This document shows positions 10,942 to 20,923 of a stretch of DNA of 25,558 nucleotides, piece after piece. Source of the stretch: a virus. Each line of letters begins with the position of its first letter. Positions within the stretch are counted from its first letter, which is position 1. The DNA lies in IMG/VR virus record IMGVR_UViG_3300027848_000088, positions 1 through 25,558 of that record; one strand, 5' to 3'. The position numbers were made by a program, and so were the translations under genes. The notes beneath the pieces were generated by a model, which was not told the origin of the DNA, did not search any database, and saw nothing but the letters and a program-made list of their open reading frames with translations.

Positions 10942-11006
10942 GATAGACGCCAATCAGGATAGACGCCCAACTGACGAGACCGATAGGTCGAAACCCCCTC
11001 GGGGGT
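10942..11006 (+). other. structured spacer with direct repeat and two hairpins
   Basis: GATAGACGCC is repeated at 10942-10951 and 10958-10967. It is followed by the perfect hairpin GACC-GATA-GGTC (10978-10989) and ACCCC-CTCG-GGGGT (10993-11006). No T-run follows, so this is not a standard terminator. It may be an RNA processing or stability element. Confidence 0.4.
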
Positions 11007-11079
11007 CTTGGGATTAGCTCTAAGGGGCAGTCCGTTATCCGCACCCTTTCAGGGTCAACGTGGTTTTTGGAGAGAGAAT

Positions 11080-13774: not shown

Positions 13775-15166
13775 ATGATTGACCTTACAGAACAAGACCT
13801 CGCATTACTTCCGCTCAAGCGTTTAAACGGGGCGTTGAAAATTGCGATTGACGAAGTGGTAGCAACCAAAGAAGAGGCTGTCCTAAAATTAGGGCGACTC
13901 ATCGCTCAGGGCTTGATCACTTTGCAGGACGTGAAAAACGCCCCTGTGATAACTGCACCTGTGCCGTCCATGGACTCGCAGGACGCCATATGGGAGCGTC
14001 TCTCAGAGCTTGCGGGAGTCGTTAAAGACCTGAACCAAACGAGTGATGCTCACACGGACAGCATTGAAAGCGTGAACATATCAATGAGTCAAATCGCTCA
14101 GGCATCAAAAGAGCCCGTGGACATCAGCCGGCATGTTCAGGCGGAAGTCAGTAGGATGTTTGACAGCTTTAAAGAAGTGACCCCAGTCGAGCGCATGAAA
14201 GAGGTGGCGGCTGACTTACCAGTCTTCACCCTGATGACAGCAGGGAGCATCTTTCCTGACTGCGTCTACGTTGACGAAGACAAGACGGTGGACTTTTCTA
14301 GCATGGAAGTGGCGGTTTGGAATGACCCACAAGCTCCTCTGTTAGTCGAGGATTATGTCTTCAAGCCCGAGCACTTGCATCAAGCTTTGGTTGCCCTTGA
14401 TGACCCCGTGCCTGACAATGTTTGGTTGGCGGGTGAGCGGGGCACAGGCAAGACTGAGTTCGTAACGCAAATCGCTTCACGCCTTGGCCGCAGATTGTTT
14501 CGTGTCAACTTTGACGAAGCCCTTGAACGGGCTGACTTCATCGGGGCAAACACCATTGAGAACGGCTCAGTCGTGTGGAAAGCCGGTATCATTGCTCAAG
14601 CCATTCAGCATGCGGGTTCGATCGTTCTACTGGACGAGGTGGGGTTCGCCCGTGCCCAGTCAATTGCGGTGTTGCATTCGTTGACCGAACGATCAGCCAA
14701 CCGTGCTTTGGTTGTAAATGAAACTAGTGAGAAGATTCGGGTTGCTCAGTACGTCAGCTTTTTCGCTTGCGACAATTCAAACGGTCATGGCGATGAGTCA
14801 GGCAACTTTGCAGGGGTTCGAGATCAAAACACAGCGTTCTTAGATCGGTTCGGGTTTACCCTTGAGTTCCAGTATCTGCCTGTTGACGCTGAAGCCAAGC
14901 TCATTGCCAGTCGCACAGGTCTGAGCGCATTACGGTCTAAAGCATTGGTTAAGTTTGCCTCTGTGGCTCGTGAGGCGGCTCGTGGTGGCACGTTAACGCA
15001 ACCACCAAGCCTTAGACAACTGTTTGCCCTCGCAAGGGCTGTAAAGAAGGGCATTCCAATTCGGGTCGCATTTCAATCGACCATCGTTAACAAGTACCCA
15101 AGCGAATGCGCTCCCGAATTAATCGGGGCGTTTAACGCAACCATCGTGCCACAAAATTTTATCTAG
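13775..15166 (+). CDS. CobS/MoxR-like AAA+ ATPase
   Basis: A 463-residue protein. An N-terminal helical region (1-140) precedes an AAA+ core with Walker A GERGTGKT at 220-227 and Walker B IVLLDE at 283-288, followed by sensor and arginine-bearing segments such as QNTAFLDRFGFTLEF. That order is typical of the CobS/MoxR group, in which AAA+ rings work with VWA proteins. Cobalt chelatase is the namesake, but phage CobS homologues occur without a cobalamin pathway, and none is seen here. RBS CAGGAGAGAG precedes the ATG. The downstream HExxH and VWA genes are its likely partners. It contains GTTTAAAC at 13821. Confidence 0.85.
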   Translation: MIDLTEQDLALLPLKRLNGALKIAIDEVVATKEEAVLKLGRLIAQGLITLQDVKNAPVITAPVPSMDSQDAIWERLSELAGVVKDLNQTSDAHTDSIESVNISMSQIAQASKEPVDISRHVQAEVSRMFDSFKEVTPVERMKEVAADLPVFTLMTAGSIFPDCVYVDEDKTVDFSSMEVAVWNDPQAPLLVEDYVFKPEHLHQALVALDDPVPDNVWLAGERGTGKTEFVTQIASRLGRRLFRVNFDEALERADFIGANTIENGSVVWKAGIIAQAIQHAGSIVLLDEVGFARAQSIAVLHSLTERSANRALVVNETSEKIRVAQYVSFFACDNSNGHGDESGNFAGVRDQNTAFLDRFGFTLEFQYLPVDAEAKLIASRTGLSALRSKALVKFASVAREAARGGTLTQPPSLRQLFALARAVKKGIPIRVAFQSTIVNKYPSECAPELIGAFNATIVPQNFI

Positions 15167-15175
15167 GAGAGTGCC

Positions 15176-16036
15176 ATGTTAGCCATGCATGCAAAAGGAG
15201 GTCTTGAAGCCACCCTTGAGCGGGTCTTCAGAGCATCAGGTCAAGATATTCATTCGCTTCGATTTGAGTGGATATCTCAAACGGCAGGGATCAAGTACGA
15301 ATATGTGGACAGAAAACTGAAAGCCACCATCTTGATGCCCGCCATTGAAGACACTGCCGAGGTGAGTATGGGCGTCTACAATCATTGGCTCGGTTTCATG
15401 CTTCATGAACTTGGGCATGCGTGGTACACAAACCACAAGGCTTGGGACGATGCAGTAGAGCAGACAAAAGACAAGTTCTTGCACGGGCTGATCATCGGTC
15501 TTGAAGACCCACGCATTGAGCAAGCAGTGATCAATCAAGGCAACAACAATGCAAGCAACCTATTTCAAAACCTCATCAACTCAATGACAGACAAACAGCC
15601 TGTCGAGCCTGATGACTTTGATAACATCCCTTACATTCTGTGCATAGAGGGTAGGCGTTTAAACGGTTACCGTATCAGCCACCCGCCCTTGTTGCCGACA
15701 TCACCGTGGCGAGACCTATTAACTGACGCATTGAAGAAAGCCCATAGCGCCAAAGAAACCGTTCAGATCATAAATATTGCGACCGACCTGTACGACAAGC
15801 TTAAGGAAGCCAAGCAGTCAGGACAGCAAGCTCAGCAACAAGCAGAAGCAAAGCAGGGAAGCGGGCAAAGTGAGGAGGAAGGTGGGCAAGGTAAGAAGCA
15901 AAAGGCATTAGGCAAGCCTACGATTGAAGTTGAGCCGAATGCTTTCATTCAAGGGCAAGCCCAAAAGGTGGGGCTTCAAACCAAACAACGACCATTATTG
16001 GTCGAGCGCATCGTGCAAAAGATTGAATTTTATTAG
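15176..16036 (+). CDS. CobT-like N-terminal protein with HExxH motif
   Basis: A 286-residue protein. HELGHAW at residues 77-83 gives an HExxH site, and LEDPRIE at 109-115 supplies a plausible third acidic ligand, as in CobT-like VWA proteins. Residues 205-245 are a Gln/Glu/Lys-rich linker, like the acidic linker of CobT. The expected C-terminal VWA domain is missing: the frame ends with TAG at 16034-16036, and the VWA protein begins ten bases later in the same frame. It is probably one half of a two-part CobT-like partner for the AAA+ ATPase. Whether it is an active protease is unknown. RBS AGGAGAG. Confidence 0.8.
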   Translation: MLAMHAKGGLEATLERVFRASGQDIHSLRFEWISQTAGIKYEYVDRKLKATILMPAIEDTAEVSMGVYNHWLGFMLHELGHAWYTNHKAWDDAVEQTKDKFLHGLIIGLEDPRIEQAVINQGNNNASNLFQNLINSMTDKQPVEPDDFDNIPYILCIEGRRLNGYRISHPPLLPTSPWRDLLTDALKKAHSAKETVQIINIATDLYDKLKEAKQSGQQAQQQAEAKQGSGQSEEEGGQGKKQKALGKPTIEVEPNAFIQGQAQKVGLQTKQRPLLVERIVQKIEFY

Positions 16037-16045
16037 GGGATTGAC

Positions 16046-16822
16046 ATGCGGGTTCACAAATTGGCGGCAGAATTAAGCTTCAAAAATTCGTACACAACCG
16101 ACTTAAGTATTGGGGCAACCCAATCTATGCTTTCAAAAGTTCTGCGGTCGGCTGATCTTGTTGGTTGGTCACGCAGAGAAGAGTCGGGCAGATTAGATCG
16201 CAAAGGTCTCACACGCTATGCCACAGGCAGTACGGCAGTGTTCTCTAGACGTGAAATAAAAGAGGCTGAAAGAGCCTCGGTATATATTCTAGTAGACTGC
16301 TCGGGATCTATGTACAACATGATGGGTCGGGCTCAAACCTTAACCATTCAACTGGCTAAAATGTTGGAGAAAGCCAAGGTTAACTATGCGGTGCGAGGAT
16401 TCTACGGTCACACGGACGCGAGCATTGAGAGCAACGAAGTGATCTTTAGAGAAGAGGTGACGCAGATCCAATTTAAAAACTGGAACGAATCCCTTGCTAA
16501 AGCAAACTTGAAGATGGGATCAATACACAGTGCGGCATGCGGGTCTACGCCCGAGTACTCAGGTCTTTACTGTGCCATTGAAGAGTTGTCTAAAAGACCC
16601 GACCCCAAGAAAGTTCTGTTCTTTTTGACTGACGCAGATGGGTTTGATGTAGAGAACATTCAACACCTTGAAGACTTAGCCGAGAAGTTGGGCGTCAAAA
16701 TTGTGGCAGTAGGTATTGACTCGCCTGATGTAACCCGTGCATTTAAACAGGCAGTGAATGTTCGAGACGTATCCGATCTAGGTGGTGCATCGTTTAGAGC
16801 TTTATTAAAAACAGTGAGGTGA
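16046..16822 (+). CDS. VWA-domain protein, CobT C-terminal type
   Basis: A 258-residue protein with a complete metal-ion adhesion site: DCSGS at 84-88, Thr in GSTPE at about 168 and Asp in LTDADG at about 196. The first 75 residues are a linker like that before the VWA of CobT. VWA proteins of this type dock to MoxR/CobS AAA+ rings. The gene is in frame with the upstream CobT-like gene, separated by TAG GGG ATT GAC; AGGGGA also provides an RBS, so reinitiation is the simplest reading. A fused read-through product of about 549 residues is possible. Confidence 0.85.
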   Translation: MRVHKLAAELSFKNSYTTDLSIGATQSMLSKVLRSADLVGWSRREESGRLDRKGLTRYATGSTAVFSRREIKEAERASVYILVDCSGSMYNMMGRAQTLTIQLAKMLEKAKVNYAVRGFYGHTDASIESNEVIFREEVTQIQFKNWNESLAKANLKMGSIHSAACGSTPEYSGLYCAIEELSKRPDPKKVLFFLTDADGFDVENIQHLEDLAEKLGVKIVAVGIDSPDVTRAFKQAVNVRDVSDLGGASFRALLKTVR

Positions 16823-17333: not shown

Positions 17334-19028
17334 TCAGAATGCACTGGGTTCAGTATAGTTGCCCGCAATCTTGTTGTAGACGAGCGTGGTTTCACCTTGT
17401 GCCCCTACCCATCGGTAGCGGCACTTCCAAACAGCCACCTGAACTTCAGCACCCTCAGTACGATGAACGGTCAGACCGCAATCTGCTTTTGCCCACCAAG
17501 CCATAGAACCGCTGATAGACATGCCATCAGGACGTGGCAGATCCATCCCAGAGCGAGTAATTTTGGCAGGGTGAGCTACGAACCACACATGCACTCCAAA
17601 CGCCTTAGCGAAGGCTTGTACCCGTGTGAGCATGCTTGAAATGAATTCCGTCTCCGACACACCCGAGCGGTTTTCAATGTAGTTGTAGGGATCGATGACC
17701 AACCCCCTTATCCCAAGTCTAGCTACGGCAATAGACGCCCGTTCTAATATCGATTCGATGGTCGATGGCTCTACGGTCTCTGAGTCTAAAAATAAGAAGT
17801 GATCATCTACCCATTTGAGCGCATCCTTTTTCTCGACATCGCTCATGCGGTTCGAGCCCTCAAAGAATCTGCGACGAGTGTGAAGCTCCATCAGCCTTGA
17901 TATATGAATGTCGGGTTGGTTCTCAAACGAACAGATCGCAAACTTCCAATCCTCCCGACCGGCTAGGTTAACCATCAACTGGTCAACGAAGTTTGACTTA
18001 CCCGAACTGGGATAGCCCGTGACCACGGTCAGCTGACCCGCTCCCACTGTGTAAATTTCATCCACGTTGCTGTAACCCGTGGATGTGCCCTCACCAGTTC
18101 CTTTTGTCCATAGGTCGTTTAAACGGTCAAAGTATTTTGATGGCTGGGAAAGACCAGCGACTGGGTAAGGCTCAGCGCCATCGAGCACCGCCTTAACAGC
18201 ATCCGCCCCATCTTTTAAAAACAAGTCATTAATATCTTTTTCAACAAGTGTTGCCAATCTGCAACGTGCCTTGCCGATGCGCCTTGCAAGCTCTTCAGCT
18301 AAAGCTTGACCCGCAGTGTCGTTGTCTGTGGCAATGATGATGTATGGGACAAGCTTCAAAAGCTCGAATGAATTCCATACGAAACTAAATTTGGCGTCCT
18401 CTGATGCATCTATACGCCCATCCTTTACTTTCATGGGGGCGCCCGCAGGGACTGACACCACGTTGGCTATACCCGCTTCAAAAGCGGCAAGGGCATCCAT
18501 CTCGCCCTCAACAATGATCAGGGGCTGTGTCGGGTCAACCTTGTCGAGCCCAAAGAAGTCCTGAGCGCCACCTTGGTCTTGTGTGAATTCTTTTGATTCT
18601 AACGCCCTGTATTTAGCACTGGTTAACTTGCCGTCTTTGTAATACGGGAAACCAAGCGCAGGGGCTTTGGCATTCATCCGCCCAAAGTATTTATCGGTGG
18701 CAAATAGTTTGAAGGCTTCTGCTGTTGCCGCAGATATACCACGGTCTTCTAAGAACTTTAAATGTGGCTCTTCTAATGCTCCCATAGCCACTGGCGGCAT
18801 GGGTTGTTGTTTTTGTACAACAGTCATTTTTCTCTCCTGAAATTTTGACTCAAACCGCACAAATCCTGAGCTTGTGCAGTGGTGGCAATAATAAGCATAG
18901 CCATCTTTTTTGCGGTGAACCGCCAGATCCTTTTCGTTTCTTTTTGACCTGTCTTTAGAACAATCAGGGCAAGCTATCCTTGCCGACTGGTCTATGTGTA
19001 ACCCCTCGATTACATGTGCCACGTCCAT
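17334..19028 (-). CDS. DNA primase-helicase, T7 gp4-like
   Basis: A 564-residue protein with three parts. A zinc-binding domain has Cys at 20, 23, 48 and 51. A TOPRIM primase core has VEGEMDA at 173-179 and ATDNDTAG at 233-240. A RecA-like DnaB-type helicase has Walker A GYPSSGKS at 338-345 and Walker B around GLVIDPYN. This is the domain order of T7 gp4: it unwinds the fork and makes primers, making a separate host helicase loader unnecessary. RBS GGGAGAGAAG precedes the ATG. It is last in the minus-strand replication operon. GTTTAAAC occurs at 18117 within it and at 17279 just past it. Confidence 0.92.
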   Translation of the reverse strand: MDVAHVIEGLHIDQSARIACPDCSKDRSKRNEKDLAVHRKKDGYAYYCHHCTSSGFVRFESKFQERKMTVVQKQQPMPPVAMGALEEPHLKFLEDRGISAATAEAFKLFATDKYFGRMNAKAPALGFPYYKDGKLTSAKYRALESKEFTQDQGGAQDFFGLDKVDPTQPLIIVEGEMDALAAFEAGIANVVSVPAGAPMKVKDGRIDASEDAKFSFVWNSFELLKLVPYIIIATDNDTAGQALAEELARRIGKARCRLATLVEKDINDLFLKDGADAVKAVLDGAEPYPVAGLSQPSKYFDRLNDLWTKGTGEGTSTGYSNVDEIYTVGAGQLTVVTGYPSSGKSNFVDQLMVNLAGREDWKFAICSFENQPDIHISRLMELHTRRRFFEGSNRMSDVEKKDALKWVDDHFLFLDSETVEPSTIESILERASIAVARLGIRGLVIDPYNYIENRSGVSETEFISSMLTRVQAFAKAFGVHVWFVAHPAKITRSGMDLPRPDGMSISGSMAWWAKADCGLTVHRTEGAEVQVAVWKCRYRWVGAQGETTLVYNKIAGNYTEPSAF

Positions 19029-19037
19029 CTTCTCTCC

Positions 19038-19313
19038 CTACTTTTTTGGTTTGTTCTGCTTGACTGACTTATCTGAATTGCGTAAGAACGAACGATTCTC
19101 ACTGGGTTTTTTTAATCTTAGGTTGCTTGGCTTATTTGTCCCCCCTTTGGACAATGGAATGATGTGGTCTATGTCTTTCCCTGCTCTGTCTATCCCCTTT
19201 TTATCCATATCGTACCGAGCCCGCTCCCGTGTTGCCCGTGCAGGCTTTTCATTACGGGCTTTCTCTTTTTCCCATTCTTTTTTGTATGGGCGGGGCTTGT
19301 TGACGTATGGCAT
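19038..19313 (-). CDS. small HNH endonuclease
   Basis: A 91-residue, very basic protein (many Lys/Arg). The HNH core is DIDHIIPLSKGGTNKPSNLR followed by asparagine-rich LKKPSENRS, giving the paired His and Asn of the motif. It lacks the usual Cys pairs. Such small HNH proteins nick or cut DNA and often behave as free-standing homing enzymes; some phage HNH proteins assist packaging. It lies ten bases upstream of the primase start with RBS AAAGGA. A second HNH gene is directly upstream. Confidence 0.85.
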   Translation of the reverse strand: MPYVNKPRPYKKEWEKEKARNEKPARATRERARYDMDKKGIDRAGKDIDHIIPLSKGGTNKPSNLRLKKPSENRSFLRNSDKSVKQNKPKK

Positions 19314-19355: not shown

Positions 19356-20012
19356 TCAATTGTCACGCCAATCTGTAGCGTCCCAGTTCCCCTTGCCATG
19401 GTTACATTCATGGCAAAGTATTTGTAAGTTACCTACATCTAACGCAAGCTCTGGGCGGGTCAATCTTGGCTTGATGTGGTCTACATTCATAACCGCACCA
19501 GACTGAGGAGTTGCCCCGCAACACTGGCACTTAGCGCCATATTTTTTTAAGGCAACCATACGGGTTTTACGCCATTCATAACTAAATAAAAAATCTTTTG
19601 ACGCAGGGCAAACATTGAGGGCGGAAGGGCTAACTGTTTTGGGCTTGTAAAAAACTTTTTTGTCTGGCGTTGTCACGTTAGCTCCAACTTTTTTTGACCC
19701 ACGCCCTTTAATTACTTCATGGTGAAGCAGTGCCCATGCACGGCTTTCAATGTTTGGCGGCTTTGGATAACCGTCAAGCTTTAATGCTTCACAGGCTAGA
19801 TCAAACATACTTTCATTGATTTTTGCTCCATATCCCAAGCGAATCTTTATGTATGCACAAACAATTTTTTGGCGTAAATGCACCTGCTTTCGATTGCGTT
19901 TTGCGCTCAAAAAAGATTCGGCAATTTCATCGCTAGACAGTTTTGACATTTTCGCCACAAGGTCTAGTTTTTTTTGTTTTCGTTTTAGGCTTTTGATTAA
20001 TATGTTAGTCAT
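19356..20012 (-). CDS. HNH endonuclease with zinc-binding cysteines
   Basis: A 218-residue protein. The C-terminal 80 residues are a zinc-type HNH domain: CQCCG, then VDHIKPR, then LQILCHECNHGKG, with two Cys pairs. The N-terminal 130 residues are basic and helical, probably for DNA recognition, and match nothing I know. The ATG at 20012 has no clear SD, and the repeat array begins only 16 bases upstream, which is odd for a cleanly integrated gene. It probably is a homing endonuclease inserted in the replication operon, possibly targeting the nearby initiator or primase. Confidence 0.85.
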   Translation of the reverse strand: MTNILIKSLKRKQKKLDLVAKMSKLSSDEIAESFLSAKRNRKQVHLRQKIVCAYIKIRLGYGAKINESMFDLACEALKLDGYPKPPNIESRAWALLHHEVIKGRGSKKVGANVTTPDKKVFYKPKTVSPSALNVCPASKDFLFSYEWRKTRMVALKKYGAKCQCCGATPQSGAVMNVDHIKPRLTRPELALDVGNLQILCHECNHGKGNWDATDWRDN

Positions 20013-20086: not shown

Positions 20087-20130
20087 GTTCAACGGTCGTT
20101 CAACGGTCGTTCAACGGTCGTTCAACATTA
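20087..20130. repeat. 11-base iterons, cluster 1
   Basis: GTTCAACGGTC occurs three times perfectly at 20087, 20098 and 20109, and a fourth unit (20120) keeps GTTCAAC. The period of 11 is not a multiple of three, so it is not driven by a protein repeat in one frame. It covers the stop codon of the DUF1376 gene. Confidence 0.85.
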
Positions 20131-20456
20131 GCGTCTTTATTGACTCTTCGAACCTCGCCACTTTTCTTGCCTGCGTCAGACGCTTGCTTTTTCTTACCTT
20201 TGTATGCCTGTATCTCAGCATCAACACGCTTGTTTACCCACCCTTTTTCTGTACGAACAAAGTATGCGTTCAACACCCGTTCAACGTCCGTTGAACACTC
20301 GTTCATCCCAATAAAGTCCTGTGGGTCATCTAAAGGAATTGGTTTTTCTTGCAGATAATACAGGTCTAATAAACGCCTGTACGCAAGGTCTTCTAGCATA
20401 CTAAGGTAACGAGTGTGGCTCGCATAGTCCCCAATATTAAATTGATAATAGTGCAT
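20100..20456 (-). CDS. DUF1376 protein, probable replication initiator
   Basis: A 118-residue protein. The start HYYQFNIGDYASHTRYLSML then EDLAYRRLLDLYYLQEKP is the DUF1376 signature. Such proteins lie in phage replication modules and are thought to act in initiation. Relatives are usually longer; here TGA (20102-20100) falls inside the 11-base repeats. Reading past it in frame gives TTVEPTINHKP and a second stop, a tail of the type I recall in longer relatives, so the stop may be a recent change. Two iteron clusters lie in or at the end of the gene. SD GAGG precedes the ATG, directly after a terminator-like T-run. Confidence 0.8.
   Translation of the reverse strand: MHYYQFNIGDYASHTRYLSMLEDLAYRRLLDLYYLQEKPIPLDDPQDFIGMNECSTDVERVLNAYFVRTEKGWVNKRVDAEIQAYKGKKKQASDAGKKSGEVRRVNKDANVERPLNDR
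20268..20311. repeat. 11-base iterons, cluster 2, inside DUF1376 gene
   Basis: GTTCAACACCC (20268), GTTCAACGTCC (20279), GTTGAACACTC (20290) and the weaker GTTCATCCCAA (20301) follow each other at an exact 11-base period. The shared core with cluster 1 is GTTCAAC. Iterons inside an initiator gene recall lambda O. Confidence 0.75.
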
Positions 20457-20468
20457 TGTTAAACCTCG

Positions 20469-20586
20469 AAAAAAAAGGCTTCACCTGAAAACTCAACACC
20501 TTTCGGGGTCTGGCAGGATAGGTCGTAACAACCTACTGAGTTTCCATGTGAAGCCTTGTTACTATTTCACGCCCCTGCCAAGGGTT
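20469..20586 (-). ncRNA. pseudoknotted three-way-junction RNA with terminator, 5' of DUF1376
   Basis: On the minus strand a long stem (20548-20557 with 20475-20484, then 20537-20543 with 20489-20495) encloses two hairpins: TAGGT/ACCTA (20519-20535) and a short one with GAAA loop (20498-20509). The linker CCTGCCA (20517-20511) pairs perfectly with TGGCAGG upstream (20580-20574), a seven-pair pseudoknot. Eight T follow the long stem, making it an intrinsic terminator, and the DUF1376 RBS comes next. A perfect TATAAT (20598-20593) lies just upstream. It is either an attenuating leader or a roughly 118-base small RNA. Confidence 0.65.
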
Positions 20587-20592
20587 AACGTA

Positions 20593-20598
20593 ATTATA
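20593..20598 (-). promoter_or_regulatory. -10 box TATAAT for the junction RNA
   Basis: A perfect TATAAT on the minus strand would start RNA near 20586, at the base of the structured element. The nearest -35-like hexamer, TTGATA (20618-20613), is only 14 bases away, which is short, so promoter strength is uncertain. Confidence 0.45.
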
Positions 20599-20895: not shown

Positions 20896-20923
20896 TAGCA
20901 CCTCATGCGGGTGCTATTTTTTT
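20896..20923 (+). terminator. plus-strand intrinsic terminator
   Basis: TAGCACC, seven-base loop, GGTGCTA and seven T. It overlaps the 3' end of the convergent RusA-like gene. The other strand has no T-run after the stem, so orientation is clear. Confidence 0.85.

Follow-up and report, generated by a model that had tools for sequence, protein, structure and literature searches.

In the fluoride and ZTP riboswitches, both of the pseudoknot type, a pseudoknot formed early competes with a terminator hairpin formed late. In HDV-like ribozymes, a 5' strand is followed by the 5' half of a long stem, a hairpin, the partner of the 5' strand, a second hairpin and the 3' half of the long stem. Among phage RNAs, the int-alpA family (RF02996) lies just before the DUF1376 gene of related phages, directly after a -10 box, and the putL and putR RNAs of HK022 are structured nascent RNAs made directly after an early phage promoter (PMC9378689).

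The locus described here shares the position of int-alpA. It was analysed in the viral record IMGVR_UViG_3300027848_000088, taken whole (25,558 bases, hereafter the window), where a leader RNA on the minus strand is found 12 nt upstream of a DUF1376 gene. This RNA is one member of a large family in environmental phages, here called class A, which is absent from Rfam 15; the family is new, its kind being already known. The structural evidence for the class A leader is strong, and its description as a new structured RNA, lying in cis to a replication gene and using a terminator as its closing stem, is supported by the results below.

Genomic setting and elements of the leader

The genes downstream of the leader are those claimed when the locus was first noticed, that is, DUF1376, two HNH proteins and a primase/helicase, as matches to PF07120, PF01844 and phrog_239 attest (Table 1). 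A RusA gene is placed upstream on the same strand, and the opposite-strand genes nearby encode an exonuclease, an ERF-type annealing protein and other early functions.

Table 1. Coordinates of the replication operon and of the elements of its leader RNA in the window
Feature	Positions	Strand	Basis
DUF1376 gene, phage primosomal/replication-initiation type, first gene of the operon	20100..20456	-	PF07120, E 7e-22; PHROG primosomal protein families
HNH endonuclease gene	19356..20012	-	PF01844
Small HNH gene	19038..19313	-	PF01844
DNA primase/helicase gene	17334..19028	-	phrog_239, E 6e-91
Whole leader RNA, family member of subtype A1	20469..20588	-	R1 cmsearch match, 43.6 bits, E 3e-8
TATAAT, -10 box of the leader promoter	20593..20598	-	Sequence
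H1, 5' hairpin CCC-TTGGCA-GGG, its loop being one side of pseudoknot alpha	20573..20584	-	A2 covariation
Pseudoknot alpha, 5' side TGGCAGG	20574..20580	-	Compensatory changes at free positions
Pseudoknot alpha, 3' side CCTGCCA, between the two inner hairpins	20511..20517	-	Compensatory changes
Pseudoknot beta, 5' side GTAACAA (linker)	20556..20562	-	Partner-shuffle test; pairing with 6-nt loops
Pseudoknot beta, 3' side TTGTTAC (P4 loop)	20525..20531	-	Partner-shuffle test; pairing with 6-nt loops
P3, 5' strand AAGGCTTCAC-A-TGGAAACTCA (closing stem, terminator)	20537..20557	-	A2 covariation
P3, 3' strand TGAGTTTTCA-G-GTGAAGCCTT	20475..20495	-	A2 covariation
P4 hairpin TAGGT..ACCTA	20519..20535	-	A2 covariation
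P5 hairpin ACCCC-GAAA-GGTGT	20496..20509	-	A2 alignment
Eight-T tract of the intrinsic terminator	20469..20476	-	Sequence; T-rich in A2 RNAs
Shine-Dalgarno GAGG	20464..20467	-	Sequence

The original prediction, made from this one sequence, described a long closing stem and two inner hairpins on the minus strand, and all of them are present, both in the sequence and in an independent model match. The other elements that it named could likewise be located, with eight T at the end of the closing stem, the ribosome binding site next to it and TATAAT at the 5' edge. In the window, P3 consists of 10 bp, one A.G mismatch and a further 10 bp, the ATG of DUF1376 occupies 20456-20454, and transcription is predicted from the spacing of the -10 box to begin near 20585-20587, at the first hairpin. 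The seven-pair pseudoknot of the prediction (alpha) stands as a pairing, confirmed by compensatory changes; the strand that had been taken for a 5' flank is for the most part the loop of a short 5' hairpin, H1. Moreover, a second pseudoknot (beta), absent from that description, joins the linker immediately preceding the closing stem to the loop sequence of the first inner hairpin, and the last two A of its 5' side overlap the outermost closing-stem pairs in the window.

Folded without pseudoknots, the leader strand has an energy of -56.2 kcal/mol, shuffled sequences giving -43.4 (z -2.7, with 3 of 200 shuffles as good), a result that is only suggestive, the real test being that of homology.

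Some further features of the window may be recorded here. Close to where RusA ends, a strong terminator-like hairpin on the plus strand is followed by seven T (20896-20916); there is no evident plus-strand gene for it to end, and an antisense transcript is possible. At 10965-11013, also on the plus strand and between two short open reading frames, a near-canonical type I hammerhead ribozyme candidate (CUGACGAG ... CGAAAC ... GUC) reaches only 27.3 bits with RF00163, whose gathering score is 34 (E 5.7e-5 for a search of 201 nt). Finally, an AAA+ ATPase (AAA_5, CbbQ_C) adjoins two genes at 13775-16822 (+), the second of which carries a putative VWA metal-binding motif (DCSGS), so that, judged by sequence, the ATPase and this putative VWA gene read like a MoxR/CbbQ-like pair in a phage.

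Class A as an RNA family

A search with the DUF1376 protein gave 80 viral loci, and the DNA 5' of their start codons holds at least two RNA types, class A and a type that in several loci matches int-alpA; by simple patterns, class A is present at 17 of the 80 loci and int-alpA-like leaders at 41. Many further class A loci came from scanning viral contigs with patterns, the first set comprising 99 distinct sequences at 154 places, and more than 120 distinct homologues are now at hand. Two subtypes can be distinguished, A1, to which the window and phage MW202520 belong, and the larger A2. A covariance model (R1) was built on 38 sequences of type A2; those of type A1, the window among them, were left out. 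It matches A1 members, the window included, with E values of about 5e-8 to 6e-11, so that A1 and A2 constitute one family; its boundaries in the window are exactly 20469-20588, in agreement with the element as first noticed. Chance folding is ruled out by this independent match together with the covariation described below.

As regards known families, Rfam 15 gave no family in the window at the curated gathering scores, and under relaxed thresholds no credible match, none with E below 1, at the leader site. No paper on the element was found in a literature search that covered only a minority of subscription journals.

Concerning distribution, the annotated phages that carry class A RNAs are only uncultured genomes, from Manatee Spring. 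Among 36 RNA-bearing phage records, 33 hold one copy, two hold two and one holds three, which rules out a mobile repeat. Plasmids searched for class A RNAs gave no match. Among bacteria, 399 genomes belonging to one order and 369 belonging to one class were scanned with the exact A2 pattern, without a match; R1, run on candidates from 301 genomes of one family, gave a single weak match (locus L354), an unrelated hairpin on inspection, and none of the 80 loci from a looser pattern scan of genome contigs matched R1. A host gene or prophage element was rejected, since no true member was found in bacterial genomes by the exact A2 pattern, with few candidates scored by R1.

Covariation of stems and pseudoknots

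In the alignment of 38 A2 rows, with 41 pairs counted, 97.2% of cells are paired against 78.2% after shuffling, and 29 of the 41 pairs show changes on both sides. The covariation score is 0.523 against 0.157 for shuffled alignments; none of 500 shuffles reaches it and slid controls give at most 0.11. The signal is carried by P3 (16 of 18 pairs), P4 (4 of 4) and H1, where three of four pairs vary on both sides and 100% of cells are paired; the P5 stem of the family, CACC/GGTG, is nearly invariant, with one covarying pair. The joining segments are constant in length, in an alignment fitted to the model.

Both pseudoknots stand the same kind of examination. When loops are exchanged between RNAs, beta pairs with its own partner over a mean of 5.74 bp against 3.40 bp for shuffled partners, and in RNAs with 6-nt loops 100% of its cells are paired against 63% when shuffled. 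The invariance of alpha within A2 was built in by the search pattern, which fixed it, and an unbiased test was therefore performed in which the loop positions were left free in the scan and the members confirmed by the model. Of 29 distinct RNAs, 28 show compensation at both free positions (57 of 58 cells, where shuffling reaches 49 at most), and the 29th is a mis-parse whose true loop, TTGGTC, pairs with GACCAA. Furthermore, locus L017, found through its protein, has an alpha of TTGGAAG with CTTCCAA. Compensatory change in homologues, the check that the original prediction had asked for, is in this way established decisively for stems, hairpins, alpha and beta.

Promoter, terminator and gene spacing

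A match to at least four of the six -10 positions is found in the 26 nt before the RNA in 64 of 70 distinct homologues, against 17 in a control window, and in 52 of the 70 the hexamer ends 3-4 nt before the first model position; because of this spacing, transcription is expected to start at H1. At the other end, P3 is conserved as a terminator with a U-tract, its sequence varying freely: each of the 86 A2 RNAs that were parsed has a P3 of 19 layers, the middle one being unpaired in 58, and 6-8 T are found in the eight-base tract window of these 86 RNAs. Of 102 cases, nearly all have the start codon 7-16 nt after the U-tract, and several that seem to deviate are ones in which the script chose an earlier in-frame start; no room is left for a promoter between terminator and gene.

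As the terminator separates the leader promoter from the gene, expression from that promoter requires read-through, and this is the main reason for regarding the element as an attenuator and not as a simple terminator. All four parts are conserved together as a unit: promoter, structured leader, intrinsic terminator and gene.

The genes that follow class A RNAs are diverse and look early or replication-linked: DUF1376, HNH, NUMOD4-HNH, ParB-like, GIY-YIG-like (T5orf172/MUG113), the AntA antirepressor and unnamed proteins of replication type. This diversity bears on two other explanations. The first is a trans-acting phage small RNA with its own promoter and terminator, stable as a pseudoknotted RNA of about 115 nt, the operon living on leaky read-through. 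Promoter and terminator do frame the RNA exactly, one copy is present in most phages, and int-alpA, a family at a related position, is filed in Rfam as an sRNA gene; we nevertheless think this explanation unlikely, given that the start-codon distance is kept despite the differing genes, that most helix sequences are free to vary, leaving little for base pairing with a target, and that the parallel class C described below has a stem masking the Shine-Dalgarno in place of a terminator. The second is a replication-origin element, acting as primer RNA or as a DNA cruciform, a reading that agrees with its place, in the window and many relatives, at the start of the replication operon. An origin would need no fixed distance to a gene, and the RNA is found before endonuclease, ParB-like and antirepressor genes as well, so that we attach very little probability to this idea.

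The leader bound by a protein in the autoregulation of T4 gene 32 provides the precedent for a third explanation, in which a phage or host protein would bind the class A leader for autoregulation or mRNA stability and the U-tract would be an unstructured landing site for ribosomes, no terminator being involved. A conserved core at alpha and P5 and a U-run directly 5' of the Shine-Dalgarno agree with it; a strong stem of 19-21 layers followed by 6-8 T is, on the other side, what an intrinsic terminator requires, and such a leader appears improbable to us.

Proposed attenuation mechanism

The attenuator-like interpretation is the best supported reading, and expression of the replication genes is probably decided by this RNA. 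In its full form, a cis-acting transcription attenuator of the replication operon with the pseudoknotted fold as antiterminator, we give it about an even chance. Transcription would begin at H1. While the 3' half of P3 is still to come, alpha would form between the H1 loop and the strand that follows P4, and beta between the P4 loop and the linker that follows H1. This fold can form first because H1, the linker, P4 and the alpha partner all precede the 3' half of P3 in transcription. Once interlocked, it would block the lower half of P3, the polymerase would pass the U-tract and the replication genes would be made; where the fold fails or is undone, P3 would close fully and transcription would stop before the first gene.

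The original prediction had cast the pseudoknot that it saw, alpha, as the possible competitor of the closing stem, a role that does not fit, as alpha shares no base with P3. Beta is the better candidate for an antiterminator, because it abuts or overlaps the base of P3: its strand touches that base without a spacer in 51 of 56 RNAs, and in the window the overlap amounts to two bases. In a crude rigid-helix estimate with ideal A-form geometry, the strand ends of a 19-bp P3 lie 53 A apart, whereas the reach of beta with P4 and the connecting bonds is about 48 A at most. On this model we infer that beta and the full terminator stem would be mutually exclusive, the margin being no more than about 5 A when the geometry is at its most permissive; beta could be compatible with the upper half of P3. 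In the window, the lower half of P3 is worth -14.8 kcal/mol against -5.1 for beta, and as P3 outcompetes beta in stability, read-through must be kinetic or need a stabiliser.

We infer both the direction of control and the existence of a trigger. The near-invariant part of the RNA (alpha, the P5 stem and the junction CUG) would be the likely contact for such a putative trigger, and the conserved sequence of alpha and P5 could also serve structure alone.

Were the attenuator reading true, the leader would constitute an RNA control point for the start of replication in environmental phages, mostly without cultured hosts. Its large family, absence from Rfam and strong covariation mean that structure work can begin at once, and it is conserved well enough for in-tube testing with a standard polymerase.

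Class C and other leader types

Class C was traced from two DUF1376 loci having neither class A nor int-alpA (L011 and L065) and was analysed by simple helix searches, which gave 95 pattern matches, some of them chance or coding sequence. Its members (L011, L065 and L355-L434) have a 5' hairpin whose loop GTGGAAA pairs with TTTCCAC, a second pairing of the linker and a long closing stem, and they stand upstream of DUF1376 and other early genes. The linker pairing reaches 5.8 bp against 4.18 bp for shuffled partners (shuffled maximum 4.73). In most DUF1376-linked members the 3' strand of the closing stem holds the Shine-Dalgarno and reaches the start codon; in L355, L368 and L425 the closing stem ends in a U-tract. 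An Rfam scan of 20 class C loci gave no match.

The same order of elements thus leads to two different outputs in class A and class C, which supports the reading of the closed stem as the OFF state, as would be expected if a terminator and a stem masking the Shine-Dalgarno were interchangeable expression platforms. This parallel suggests a general design. A broader proposal, which we put forward tentatively and hold to be unlikely, is that of a new class of phage RNA switch in which reciprocal hairpin-loop pseudoknots would sense a signal of the host or of the infection state, class A acting on transcription and class C on translation, with class A, class C and int-alpA as alternative solutions to the same decision on replication-gene expression.

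Other leaders were observed at DUF1376 loci. The int-alpA-like RNAs 5' of this gene (L026, L029, L046, L062 and others) seem to contain a pseudoknot that is not drawn in the Rfam consensus, the loop of their second hairpin (e.g. AACCTCC) being complementary to a strand near the Shine-Dalgarno (GGAGGTT). At L019 (3560-3733), a further type with a terminator-like end precedes DUF1376 and is neither class A nor int-alpA.

Comparison with known systems

Although int-alpA and class A share their position, and phage MW202520 carries both, they differ in sequence and fold. At its gathering score, RF02996 matches neither the window nor other class A RNAs, its matches lying elsewhere, and R1 gave no match in four records with int-alpA-like leaders.

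The nested double-pseudoknot order of HDV-like ribozymes is found in class A (H1 loop, P3, P4, alpha, P5, P3). Class A differs from them in having no J4/2 with a catalytic C, with zero nucleotides between P5 and P3 in A2 (columns 97/98), in using a hairpin loop as the 5' strand and in possessing a second pseudoknot; moreover, with the transcript start predicted at H1 from the -10 spacing, there would be no 5' leader to cleave. An HDV-like ribozyme was therefore rejected, the strand order fitting and both the catalytic joining strand and the 5' leader being missing.

The put RNAs of HK022, which antiterminate through the zinc-binding domain of the RNA polymerase beta' subunit, invite the explanation that the nascent class A RNA binds the polymerase, which would then read through this terminator and those that follow. 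Both elements are found directly after an early phage promoter, class A has a compact pseudoknotted fold, and put acts on the very polymerase that made it (PMC9378689). The put RNAs are, in contrast, about 70 nt long, with two stem-loops, and act on remote terminators (PMC9378689), whereas class A has about 120 nt, four stems and two pseudoknots, and its closing stem is itself a terminator; a put-like mode of action is accordingly considered rather improbable.

As for the fluoride and ZTP riboswitches, the class A leader is at most a candidate riboswitch in the strict sense, in which a metabolite or ion binds directly and changes expression, and its downstream genes offer no metabolic clue to a ligand. 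Class A has no Rfam match, and its putative competing pseudoknot lies against the terminator strand instead of having most of that strand in common with it; the likeness to these riboswitches would lie in the setting of an early pseudoknot against a late terminator hairpin.
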